A stretch of DNA of 23,032 nt from a virus. The DNA is taken from the IMG/VR virus record IMGVR_UViG_3300024258_000119, positions 1 through 23,032 of that record; one strand, given 5' to 3'. Position numbers and translations under genes: made by a program. Of this stretch, positions 15,460-19,529 are shown piece after piece (position 1 is the stretch's first letter; each line of letters starts with the position of its first letter). The notes beneath the pieces are model-generated. The model was given only the letters and a program-made list of their open reading frames with translations. It was not told the DNA's origin and ran no database searches.

Positions 15460-16044
15460 ATGGCATCATTATTCGATAAATTAGAATCAGAAGCGTTTCG
15501 TAAAGGTCTTACTAAAAGGTCTAAAGAAGCGCAAGACTGGTTTAGAAAGCAAGTAAGCTCTATGGGCAAAATCAACATGCATACAATGTTGAAGGATGAT
15601 AGACTAGTAAAGAAGCAGAGACCTAGAGTTGGCGATATGTTCATGTATGCATACGATCCTAAGCATAGAAAGACATTACCATATTACGATAGGTTTCCTT
15701 TAACTATTATGGTGGGGCAAGCCCCTGGTGGATTTTATGGATTAAATTTACATTATCTTCCGCTAAAGCAAAGAGCTATATTCTTAGATAATTTGACGGC
15801 CATTGCTAATAATAAGAAGTTTGATGAGACCACAAGATTAAAATTGAGTTACAATTTATTAAAGAGTGCAAGCAAATTTAAATACTTCGCTCCGTGTTTT
15901 AAACATTATTTAACAGAACAAGTGGATTCTAAAATTATGAAAGTAGAAGCATCTGAATGGGACATAGCTATATTTCTTCCTACAGAGAACTTTGCTAAGA
16001 AGAAGACATCATTTGTTTGGAAAGAATCAAGGAGTAAGTACTAA
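15460..16044 (+). CDS. Candidate DNA end protector, gp2-like
   Basis: 194 aa. The conserved core is VGDMFMYAYDPKHRKTLPYY (residues 57-76) then DRFPL, GLNLHYLPLKQRAIFLDNL (94-112), a KLSYNLLKSASKFKYFAPC segment (128-146) and a C-terminal EWDIAIFLPTENF (166-178). I recall proteins with this YDPK..LPYYD.FPL..GLNLHYLP pattern from marine T4-like phages, where they are usually annotated as DNA end protector (gp2) or structural protein. T4 also groups genes 2 and 4, which supports gp2. gp2 binds packaged DNA ends and shields them from RecBCD. T4 gp2 is longer (about 274 aa), and I cannot confirm homology by eye, so a different neck or head role remains possible. Confidence 0.55.
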   Translation: MASLFDKLESEAFRKGLTKRSKEAQDWFRKQVSSMGKINMHTMLKDDRLVKKQRPRVGDMFMYAYDPKHRKTLPYYDRFPLTIMVGQAPGGFYGLNLHYLPLKQRAIFLDNLTAIANNKKFDETTRLKLSYNLLKSASKFKYFAPCFKHYLTEQVDSKIMKVEASEWDIAIFLPTENFAKKKTSFVWKESRSKY

Positions 16045-16760
16045 TGTCCCTTCCAGTCGGTATTGATACATTAAAATCCACTATTGGAAAACGTGGTGGT
16101 TTAGCCCGTGCTAATAGATTTGCAATATATATTACCCACCCCAATATGAAGAGCCCAATGGGGCCCGGATTGTTTAATGCGGACATTGGAGGCTTAGTAT
16201 CTAATGTGGCTGGTTCATTGATGTCTGGTGGTTCTATTGATCCAATGAGTTTCATTAATGATCCTCGAGACATGTTCTTATTATGTGAGAGTGTTCAGCT
16301 TCCGGGTAAACGTATTGCCACTATGGAAAGCTTTATCACACATAAAGCAATTAAGAAACCTTATTCATACTTAGTGGATGAAGTAACATTTACATTTGTA
16401 TTAACTAACGACTACTTTGCAAGGAAGTATTTTGATTCGTGGCAACAGCTCATTGTGGATCAACAATCATTAAAGATGAATTATAAGAACGATTATGTCA
16501 CAGACGTGACTATTCAACAGCTTACATCATCTAATGATATTATACCAGCATATACAGTTAAATTAAAGAACGCTTTTCCATTAGCAGTAAATGCTATTGA
16601 GTTGAGCAACTCATCAGAGAATAGTCTATTGCAGTGTTCTGTTACATTATCATTCGATGATTGGGAAGAAGTGGGATTACTAGATGGATTCACTGATTTA
16701 GTATCTAAAGGAAGAGACATATTTGATGCAACAGTGGGTCAAGTGAAAGGATTATTTTAA
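16044..16760 (+). CDS. Tail-tube-fold baseplate protein, gp54-like
   Basis: 238 aa. The segments EVTFTFVLTNDYFARKYFDS (residues about 111-130), WQQLIVD, VKLKNAFPLAVNAIELS and the C-terminal LQCSVTLSFDDWEEV follow the tail tube fold (compare T4 gp19 WTVTVMNDEAHDARQKFVDW and IQTFEVTLALDYWE). It is longer than gp19 (163 aa), with a glycine-rich N-terminal insert (SLMSGGSIDPMSFINDPRD) and a C-terminal amphipathic tail. A tube-like protein beside gp26 and a tape measure candidate best fits gp54, which starts tube polymerisation on gp48; a second tail tube protein is the alternative. The ATG shares a base with the preceding stop (TAATG), and AAGGAG lies about 9 nt upstream. Confidence 0.6.
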   Translation: MSLPVGIDTLKSTIGKRGGLARANRFAIYITHPNMKSPMGPGLFNADIGGLVSNVAGSLMSGGSIDPMSFINDPRDMFLLCESVQLPGKRIATMESFITHKAIKKPYSYLVDEVTFTFVLTNDYFARKYFDSWQQLIVDQQSLKMNYKNDYVTDVTIQQLTSSNDIIPAYTVKLKNAFPLAVNAIELSNSSENSLLQCSVTLSFDDWEEVGLLDGFTDLVSKGRDIFDATVGQVKGLF

Positions 16761-16778
16761 ATTATAAGGAAATATATT

Positions 16779-17486
16779 ATGAATACATTACCAACAATAT
16801 CAGTACCGAAGTATAGATTAACAATACCATCAACAAAAGAATCAGTAGCATTCAGACCATACTTGGTTAGAGAAGAGAAGCTATTAATGATTGCTTCAGA
16901 GTCAGAAGACCAAGAGCAGATTGAAGATGCTGTAATACAAGTGGTGGAAGACTGTTTGGAATATGGTAAGAGTATAAAGGAATTAACAGCTGCTGACTTA
17001 GAGTTTATCTTTATTCAATTACGTAGTAAGAGTGTTGGAGAGACATTAGATATCATTAAGGTATGTGATGAGTGTGAAGGTCAGACAGAAGTGTCTATTA
17101 ACATCCAGGAAGCTTATGTTAAAGCTCCAGAAGAGGTAGATTTCAATGTGAAGCTATCTGATGATCTAACACTTGAGTTGAGGTTTCCTACATTGAGTAA
17201 TAAGGTATCTTACAATGAAGATGTATCTGATACTGATATCCTTATTAAAAATGCGGCTAATTCATTATCAGTAATATACTATGGTGAAGATACATACGAT
17301 GCAAAGAGTGTATCAGTTAGTGAAAGAGAAGAATTTATTGGCAGCCTTAGTACAGAACAATTTAATAAAATTATTGACTTTCTAATGAAAGCTCCGTATG
17401 TAACATATGATGGAAAGTTCACTTGTAGTAAATGTGGGCACAAGCACGAATTTAATTACACAGGATTAATAGATTTTTTTATTTAG
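16779..17486 (+). CDS. 26: Baseplate hub assembly chaperone gp26-like with zinc ribbon
   Basis: 235 aa; T4 gp26 is 208. It has the T4-type baseplate protein layout: an N-terminal PKYRLTIPSTKESVAFRPYL with VREEKLLMIA, a helical middle, and two CxxC pairs at residues 96-99 (CDEC) and 216-219 (CSKC) that would form a zinc ribbon. In T4, gp26 is needed for hub assembly and is probably a chaperone rather than a major structural part. A good AGGA site precedes the ATG by 8 nt. The last codons are GAT TTT TTT ATT TAG: the run of seven T at 17474-17480 sits directly before the stop and permits a -1 shift into the open frame downstream, which would give a 292-aa fusion. Confidence 0.8.
   Translation: MNTLPTISVPKYRLTIPSTKESVAFRPYLVREEKLLMIASESEDQEQIEDAVIQVVEDCLEYGKSIKELTAADLEFIFIQLRSKSVGETLDIIKVCDECEGQTEVSINIQEAYVKAPEEVDFNVKLSDDLTLELRFPTLSNKVSYNEDVSDTDILIKNAANSLSVIYYGEDTYDAKSVSVSEREEFIGSLSTEQFNKIIDFLMKAPYVTYDGKFTCSKCGHKHEFNYTGLIDFFI
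17474..17480 (+). promoter_or_regulatory. Candidate -1 ribosomal frameshift site (T TTT TTT)
   Basis: Seven consecutive T fit the X XXY YYZ slippery pattern in the gp26 frame (GA T TTT TTT), two codons before the gp26 stop. Slipping back one base enters a frame that is open for 58 codons. No strong stem or pseudoknot is visible at the usual 5-9 nt spacing; a weak CCTA/TAGG hairpin lies about 30 nt downstream. Confidence 0.55.
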
Positions 17487-17656
17487 CTCTTTCGCACGAA
17501 TCATTAGAGGCCTACTTTAGGTTAAACTTTTCATTGATGGAAGAGCACAAATATAGTTTAGTTGAGTTAGATAACATGATCCCTTGGGAACGTGAAATCT
17601 ATACCAGCTTGCTCATAAAACAGATCAATGAGGATATAGAGAATGCCAACACATAA
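17480..17656 (+). CDS. -1 frame extension of gp26 (chaperone fusion; possible gp51 equivalent)
   Basis: The frame one base back from gp26 is open from the T run to a TAA at 17654-17656 and encodes 58 residues beginning YLALSHESLEAYFRLNFSLM and continuing EEHKYSLVELDNMIPWEREI. The composition is that of a real protein (charged helix, tryptophan, hydrophobic pattern). I recall a similar NFSLM...YSL.EL.NM.PWERE.Y segment after gp26 in related phages. An internal ATG at 17537 would give only 39 residues, has no ribosome binding site and would lose the N-terminal half of the motif, so production as a gp26 fusion (292 aa) is more likely. It overlaps the tape measure start by 14 nt. In lambda and P2, such frameshift products are tail-assembly chaperones for the tape measure protein. 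Confidence 0.6.
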   Translation, partial: YLALSHESLEAYFRLNFSLMEEHKYSLVELDNMIPWEREIYTSLLIKQINEDIENANT

Positions 17657-19529
17657 AGATGATAAAGTTGTAGCGAGAGCTCAAGCAAATAAAATTCAGA
17701 GGGATGCAAAGTCAGGATTCAATCTGCTAACTAAAGCTATTGGTGAATTAAACAAGAACGTAGAAAGTTTAAGAAACATTGAGCTGTTATCGGTAGCACA
17801 TGACGTAAAAGTTGGTGATAATGACAAAAAGTTCTATTCAGGAGTTGATAGGACTAACCAAGAATCTAAGGTCAACGAAGCTCACATTGTTGAATCTACA
17901 GCTAGACAAGAGGCCGGACTTCGTCAAATAGCAAAGCGGATTGTATTATTGCATGGGTTTTTAGCTAAAGATTCATCTGAAGAAACTAAGTTCAGATTAA
18001 AAGTAGCATCCGAAGAACACACTCAATCATTGCGCAAGCATAGATCGATTGGAATGTCTCAGTTTGAGTTTATGAGAGATCGTAAAATCCAGAGTATATC
18101 TGGATTAGAAGGACAAGAAAGATTTACTCAAAACGATAAAGGTGAGTGGAAAGGTACTGGTAAGAACTACACAGCTGAAGAAGCAAAAGCTGAAAGGCTG
18201 GCTTGGGATACAATGATATCCAAGAAGAAACACTCCATGAACAAGGCTCATGCTGAGGGTGCTGTTAATAGTAAGTCTAAAAGATATCGTGCTGCACAGA
18301 TTACTGGTGATGTTACAAGTGAGGAAGCCCTTAAGGCGCAGCGGACTATCATTAAAGAAAAACGAGCCCATCTGATAGCAGAAGGAGCATCTGCTCAAAA
18401 GATTAAGGCAGAGTCTCGAAAACTTCTAAACTCTTTCGTTGCAGCTAATGATGACGTTAATAAAATGTATAATTATGGTACAACTGCTATATTGGATTCG
18501 AGAGACCATGGTGGTGATAATGAAAAAAAGGCTGATCCTGAATTAGTTAAGAAGACTAATGATATATTAAAGGTCAACTCAGACATGCTGGATGTGCTAA
18601 AAGGAAATGCTTTAGCAGAGAAAGAAATAAATAGAGAAAAACGTAAGAATATTCTAAAAGGTAAGTCGACTAGATTTAGCAAACCTCGTATCATTTCACC
18701 TAGTGCTGTGGGTACAGGTATTGGATTATTGGGGGGAATAGCAACCACAGGTACTACGTTAGCCACTACTGCATTAGCCAGCAAGATGGTAAAAGATCGT
18801 ATTGCAAAGAAGGCGGCAAAGAAGGTGGCCGCAAAAGCAGCTGCTGCTTTAGCTGCTAAGAAAGTTGCTGAGAAACTAGCCATTAAGAAAGCTAAAGAGG
18901 TTGCTGCTAAGAAAGTTATCCAAGTAGCTACTAAAGCAGTAGCGGTCTCTGCTGTTAAGAAGGTAGCAACTAAGAAAGTTGTCGAAAAGGTTGGACTATC
19001 AACTGTCATGGCCCTTGCTAAGAAAGTAGCGGCTAAACTTGGTTGGAGTACAATTGCTAAACATCTTGCAACTAAACTTCCTGCATTAGCATTAGGTGCT
19101 GCAGCAGGCCCTATTGGTATTGCAATTGCTATTGCTGGAGCAATATGGATGGCATATGACATCTACGAAGTACTTCAAGAGCTGGACAAAGCCACCGATG
19201 TTGGTAAAGGGTTGGATCATCCTCTACTCAAGCCAATACCAGAACAAGCTAATAAGCAAGTGATGACCAAAAGAGGCCTGCGTACAGTTAAAGTTACCAA
19301 TGCTGATGCACTAGATTCTGCTGAGAAACAAAAGCAAGCAGCTATACAGCCTAGCATAGATGGTGCTAGTAAAGCCAAATCTACTGTAGTATCTAATTCA
19401 GGTAACACATCGAACTCAGGCAATTCCACAGTCATTAATCAGTATGGGTCATTTGATCCAGCTAGGTTAAATACTAGCGACTTGACTACTAGAGTTCCTG
19501 TAGAAGGATTTATAACTCCAGGAATTTAA
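17643..19529 (+). CDS. Candidate tail tape measure protein (gp29 role)
   Basis: 628 aa, against 590 for T4 gp29. Residues 1-350 are mostly charged alpha-helix with coiled-coil character (KIQRDAKSGFNLLTKAIGEL; EKEINREKRKNILKGK). Residues about 375-475 are an Ala/Lys-rich stretch (KKAAKKVAAKAAAALAAKKV and more), followed by a hydrophobic, membrane-like segment (LALGAAAGPIGIAIAIAGAI, about residues 480-505). The C-terminus is Ser/Asn/Thr-rich and ends with a PVEGFITPGI tail. Long helix plus one hydrophobic segment is typical of tape measure proteins, and it directly follows the gp26/-1 frame unit. At about 1.5 angstrom per residue it would set a tail near 94 nm. A GAGG site lies about 8 nt upstream of the ATG. 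No sequence similarity to T4 gp29 is apparent by eye. Confidence 0.6.
   Translation: MPTHKDDKVVARAQANKIQRDAKSGFNLLTKAIGELNKNVESLRNIELLSVAHDVKVGDNDKKFYSGVDRTNQESKVNEAHIVESTARQEAGLRQIAKRIVLLHGFLAKDSSEETKFRLKVASEEHTQSLRKHRSIGMSQFEFMRDRKIQSISGLEGQERFTQNDKGEWKGTGKNYTAEEAKAERLAWDTMISKKKHSMNKAHAEGAVNSKSKRYRAAQITGDVTSEEALKAQRTIIKEKRAHLIAEGASAQKIKAESRKLLNSFVAANDDVNKMYNYGTTAILDSRDHGGDNEKKADPELVKKTNDILKVNSDMLDVLKGNALAEKEINREKRKNILKGKSTRFSKPRIISPSAVGTGIGLLGGIATTGTTLATTALASKMVKDRIAKKAAKKVAAKAAAALAAKKVAEKLAIKKAKEVAAKKVIQVATKAVAVSAVKKVATKKVVEKVGLSTVMALAKKVAAKLGWSTIAKHLATKLPALALGAAAGPIGIAIAIAGAIWMAYDIYEVLQELDKATDVGKGLDHPLLKPIPEQANKQVMTKRGLRTVKVTNADALDSAEKQKQAAIQPSIDGASKAKSTVVSNSGNTSNSGNSTVINQYGSFDPARLNTSDLTTRVPVEGFITPGI

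Follow-up and report, generated by a model that had tools for sequence, protein, structure and literature searches.

Frameshifted tail assembly chaperone pairs are familiar from lambda, in which the genes lie in the order V-G-GT-H, and from P2, with its E/E' pair, both of which use slippery heptamers different from the one described here. A poly-T slippery motif with a -1 extension of a short chaperone is conserved in Vandenendeviridae and Andersonviridae (phage Adele), as described in PMC12846349; the motif at that locus, GTTTTT, is unlike the T_TTT_TTT discussed below, and we liken the two loci by description. In T4 itself, the proteins listed as hub assembly chaperones include gp26 and gp51, the latter being required and absent from the particle (PMC3004832). 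The T4-like chaperone genes were identified by Vladimirov, Gautam and Davidson in 2022, as reported by citing papers, and one of these, the PRFect paper (PMC10885494), states that some T4-like phages have a short gene plus a separate fused long gene in place of frameshifting, citing that work. Cyanophage and marine vibriophage gp51 have been described as missing the first ~200 residues, with no cause given in the available part of the source (Sullivan et al. 2010, PMC3037559). Frameshifted chaperone pairs are therefore established in other phages and have been reported before from T4-like ones, and the idea is less new than was supposed in an earlier note on this DNA (given Vladimirov, Gautam and Davidson 2022, via citing papers). 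What we report is a strongly supported case in an uncultured relative. The window, by which we mean the whole stretch of 23,032 bases analysed, is an uncultured virus record whose baseplate and neck genes are T4-like and include, by Pfam and PHROG, relatives of gp8, baseplate wedge, hub, tail tube cap, head closure, DNA end protector and tail tube proteins. All features below are on the plus strand.

Results

The local gene order in the window—tail tube, gp26, extension, long gene—parallels lambda V-G-GT-H. Directly upstream of gp26 lies a gp19-like tail tube gene (16044..16760; phrog_45 tail tube, 2.7e-33), whose match to PF06841 Phage_T4_gp19 (1.8e-4) is under the family cut-off. The 0-frame gp26 gene (16779..17486) encodes 235 aa, the presumed short form of the chaperone, and belongs to PF12322 T4_baseplate (2e-54) and phrog_150 (2.8e-60). 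It ends ..ATA GAT TTT TTT ATT TAG, with the slippery heptamer near the stop that the earlier note had pointed out. Its seven T's at 17474..17480 form an in-frame X_XXY_YYZ heptamer in the right phase for tandem -1 slippage, one codon before the TAG stop at 17484..17486. No stop interrupts the -1 frame from nine codons ahead of that TAG (as read on locus L001, in which the junction is identical to that of the window), and after the heptamer it runs for 58 codons plus stop as an extension at 17480..17656, the length claimed for it beforehand; its peptide reads YLALSHESLEAYFRLNFSLM...NANT, its TAA is at 17654-17656, and its last 14 nt are shared with the next ORF, which begins with an ATG at 17643. 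Joined to gp26, it gives a predicted long form of 292 aa, which shares the N-terminal body of the short form at the level of sequence. The extension matches phrog_634, "baseplate hub assembly catalyst" (8.7e-22), and phrog_150, the gp26 family, itself runs on into the extension. A +1 shift was rejected, the +1 frame being open for only 12 codons past the stop. The window junction had no Megablast match among named phages, and an Rfam scan of the window matched nothing.

The extension could be a separate small protein, the "gp51" of cyanophage annotations, with its own start or made by reinitiation past the gp26 stop. This is how public records annotate it, and an ATG is placed at the gp26 stop by a TAATG or TGATG overlap in several Vibrio, Caulobacter, rhizobial and Stenotrophomonas phages. 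In the window, however, no ATG, GTG or TTG occurs in the first 17 codons of the extension, in line with the claim that it has no good independent start. The earliest candidates are a TTG at 17534 and an ATG at 17537, 18 and 19 codons in; starting there would cut off the conserved N-terminal third of the peptide, and this first start sits partly in a predicted stem (see below). Four clusters of relatives (L024, L071, L097 and L128) lack any start among the first 25 codons. Together with purifying selection on codons that precede any start, a heptamer that is kept regardless, and the in-frame fusion of the extension domain in T4, all detailed below, these observations make a separate protein an unlikely account of the extension. 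Six of the phages concerned (L085, L091, L092, L093, L094 and L100, of the Vibrio, Caulobacter, rhizobial and Stenotrophomonas groups) carry both the heptamer and the stop-start overlap, and such phages could thus make a free extension besides the fusion.

We next consider conservation of the junction across relatives, which the earlier note had proposed to align. An IMG/VR search with gp26 yielded 80 loci, to which named phages were added from annotated records and by three further scans; the resulting 115 loci were clustered at 85% identity across 210 bases around the stop, giving 46 clusters. In 41/46 clusters, spanning Kyanoviridae, Straboviridae, and rhizobial, Caulobacter, Pseudomonas and Stenotrophomonas phages, a T_TTT_TT(T/C/G) lies in frame and leads into a homologous -1 extension; the extension is open in all 46. 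Three more loci, on MAG contigs found by a scan with a single extension protein, all have the heptamer and AAGG. The junction thus passes the test that the note had proposed: the T run and the -1 reading are conserved and, as described further on, the codons 5' of the ATG at 17537 are under purifying selection. The heptamer and its -1 extension are not due to chance: other in-frame heptamers number only 4 in the 27,786 bases of the 41 gp26 genes, and the first Phe codon of the heptamer is TTT in 41/41, as compared with 279 TTT and 145 TTC (145/424) elsewhere in these genes. The 0-frame stop lies 0, 1, 2 or 8 codons past the heptamer among relatives, which shows that the heptamer stays in place as the stop moves. 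In clusters such as L016, L019, L071, L072, L075 and L079, a stop shuts the -1 frame immediately ahead of the two Phe codons, so that the shift can take place nowhere but on the heptamer.

Two artefactual or nonribosomal origins of the -1 step can be weighed on the same alignment. Miscounting of the T's in sequencing is excluded because most relatives read TTTTTTC instead of seven T's and yet need the same -1 step, which is found in 41 clusters with different heptamers. Homopolymers can also cause RNA polymerase to stutter, and with seven T's in the window phage, transcriptional slippage on the run could produce mixed mRNAs, some of them in frame for the fusion. The shorter run of most relatives, six T's then C, keeps ribosomal slipperiness instead, and both the conserved X_XXY_YYZ phase and an upstream anti-Shine-Dalgarno site at fixed spacing point to the ribosome; we regard transcriptional slippage as very improbable.

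The extension is under selection as a peptide. Over its first 19 codons, which precede the first ATG in the window, pooled values are 0.41 for pS and 0.098 for pN (pN/pS 0.24) from 29 disjoint locus pairs, a number that overstates the independent comparisons since some of the pairs come from near-identical loci. Between the window and L006, extension substitutions fall 3, 2 and 16 times at -1-frame codon positions 1, 2 and 3. The extension codons before any ATG are therefore under purifying selection. This bears on a further reading, that the -1 ORF is unexpressed or is what is left, in decay, of a gene formerly fused, which a frame open in 46/46 clusters, strong conservation and a pN/pS of about 0.24 leave with hardly any probability.

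A second conserved element lies upstream of the heptamer. An AGG is found 10-14 nt upstream in 40/41 clusters, the GG at -11/-10 usually being preceded by A or G, and the hybridisation energy to the 16S anti-Shine-Dalgarno shows a sharp minimum at this position across clusters. Because a Gly is conserved there, codon choice was tested: the mean best anti-Shine-Dalgarno energy is -5.6 kcal/mol vs -4.5 in synonymous recodings, with 0/300 shuffles reaching the observed mean, while the same test at four control positions had no effect. The upstream AGG is therefore selected beyond codon choice. These energies were computed with the standard bacterial anti-Shine-Dalgarno, from which that of the host may differ. 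In the window, the Shine-Dalgarno-like AGGA lies at 17462..17465, 8 nt before the heptamer, and the site as a whole (ACAGGA) is weaker than the average, at -4.1 vs -5.6 kcal/mol; most relatives have a strong one.

Downstream, a stem-loop is predicted in the window, with a 5' arm GCUCUUUCG at 17486..17494 that begins 5 nt past the heptamer, and a 3' arm UGGAAGAGC at 17538..17546 that overlaps the internal ATG (17537-17539). Its predicted energy is -16.6 kcal/mol (z -2.6 against dinucleotide shuffles; p 0.04 with synonymous recoding), and all nine outer pairs are kept in L006 despite substitutions. The stem stands out in the window and in several relatives and is modest on average: across clusters, the downstream fold has a mean z of -1.5 vs 0.0 to -0.5 in controls when dinucleotides are shuffled, and of -1.0 vs -0.6 in control windows when codons are fixed. 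Since the latter difference is so small, we treat the stem as lineage-dependent. A universal downstream stem was rejected, the average signal under fixed codons being mostly common to the control windows, and a stem is claimed for individual phages only.

The comparison with T4 provides an independent view of the fusion. T4 gp51 aligns to the predicted 292-aa protein with no gap across the junction (aligned T4 part: NYTGLIDFFYLALSHESLEAYFRLN; BLASTP 4e-17 in a two-sequence comparison, with a profile alignment besides), so the predicted frameshift product is collinear with a real single-frame protein. Like the predicted fusion, T4 gp51 consists of a gp26-like body (PF12322) and the same C-terminal extension in frame, whereas T4 gp26 ends before the extension. 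A Tevenvirinae-type gp51 from Klebsiella phage P545 likewise matches phrog_150 over nearly its whole length (1.9e-77), with PF12322 at residues 2-201 and the extension family, phrog_634, at residues 147-250. The proposal that gp26 and its extension are the T4-like counterpart of the chaperone pair is supported more strongly by these matches than it was in the earlier note. T4 thus has its short (gp26) and long (gp51) forms as separate, divergent genes with no frameshift, whereas the window has one gene and a slippery site. In one relative, a T4-type long gene 51 is broken into two frames (L124:2501-3246), and the match in Acinetobacter phage ZZ1 (H176) is in two pieces; either a sequence error or a second recoding event is possible in these cases.

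Structural comparison is suggestive only. The AlphaFold model of gp26 has a pLDDT of 90.6, and among the PDB matches listed by Foldseek for it, the highest probability goes to 2ob9, the tail assembly chaperone of HK97 (probability 0.89 and 0.80, E 0.21 and 0.66 for its two chains; TM 0.42). We take this as no more than a suggestive likeness of the modelled gp26 fold to HK97 gp13. A fold search with a model of a T4-like gp51 found no meaningful match, and a PDB sequence search with the gp26 profile gave just weak matches to unrelated proteins.

The long gene that follows (17643..19529, 628 aa) is a candidate tape measure by position. It has no Pfam or PHROG match, and its identification as a relative of T4 gp29 was dropped, the similarity not being significant. 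Hence, of the earlier suggestion that the frameshift lies in front of the tape measure gene, the gp26/extension pair stands, while the putative tape measure itself is placed by position, with no significant similarity to T4 gp29. Compared with its counterparts in relatives, the ORF shows hardly any similarity. Most relatives for which enough sequence is available have a poorly conserved long gene of ~450-1,100 aa 3' of the extension, a size and position compatible with a tape measure.

Discussion

The main conclusion of this study is that gp26 and its -1 extension very probably form one gene (we put the probability at about 0.9), encoding a tail assembly chaperone pair of the lambda G/GT type through -1 ribosomal frameshifting. 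The heptamer, the conserved -1 reading, the selection on both the peptide and the AGG, and the homology of the fusion to T4 gp51 are observed; from them we infer slippage itself, its frequency and the chaperone action. Most ribosomes would stop at the TAG at 17484 to yield the 235-aa short form. A fraction would pause on T_TTT_TTT, aided by the upstream AGGA and, in the window phage, by the downstream stem-loop, whereupon both tRNA-Phe would slip back by one base and reading would continue to 17656 to give the 292-aa long form. If the pair acts as in lambda, the body common to both forms may coat the tape measure protein or polymerise along it, and the extension may recruit tail tube subunits.

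This reading explains a puzzle in the annotation of T4-like phages. In Kyanoviridae (S-PM2, S-SM1 and DSL-LC03), the gene order, heptamer, upstream AGG and extension of gp26/"gp51" are as in the window, but the records annotate two separate genes or omit the second. More generally, among the sampled named phages that carry a split extension (L081-L083, L085, L088-L100, L134 and L135), none has a joined gp26-extension CDS annotated, and the extension goes by the name gp51, is entered as hypothetical, has its start set at an internal Met, or is left unannotated, as it is in DSL-LC03, VmeM-32, AS-szw, ACG-2014j and S-PRM1. The "gp51" of cyanophages and other T4-like phages would look truncated because it is the tail end of a frameshift product and there is no separate gene. 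Three results we did not find stated in the available literature (Vladimirov et al. 2022 via citing papers): that the AGG at fixed spacing goes beyond codon choice, that -1 stops localise the shift, and that Ackermannviridae are an exception, as discussed below.

The exceptions are confined to 5/46 clusters (L086, L096, L098, L099 and L111), namely four from Ackermannviridae and one similar unclassified Vibrio phage (D533). These keep a homologous -1 extension and have neither the T heptamer nor the upstream AGG. Their junctions read NNT TTC NNN TAA, some with a TAATG overlap, and Kuttervirus S8 has neither a heptamer nor a canonical start near the extension. We tentatively suggest, at somewhat less than even odds, that single-gene frameshifting is the older and commonest arrangement across the T4 superfamily, that the two genes of T4 arose by a later duplication, and that Ackermannviridae represent a third solution in which the extension was kept, the heptamer and AGG were lost and, in some, a stop-start overlap was gained.

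The case described here brings gp26 and gp51, the "hub assembly chaperones" of T4, into the scheme common to tail assembly chaperones, and it offers a clean natural comparison of frameshifting with gene duplication. If the evolutionary scenario above is true, one homologous chaperone would show three ways to fix the ratio of two forms.
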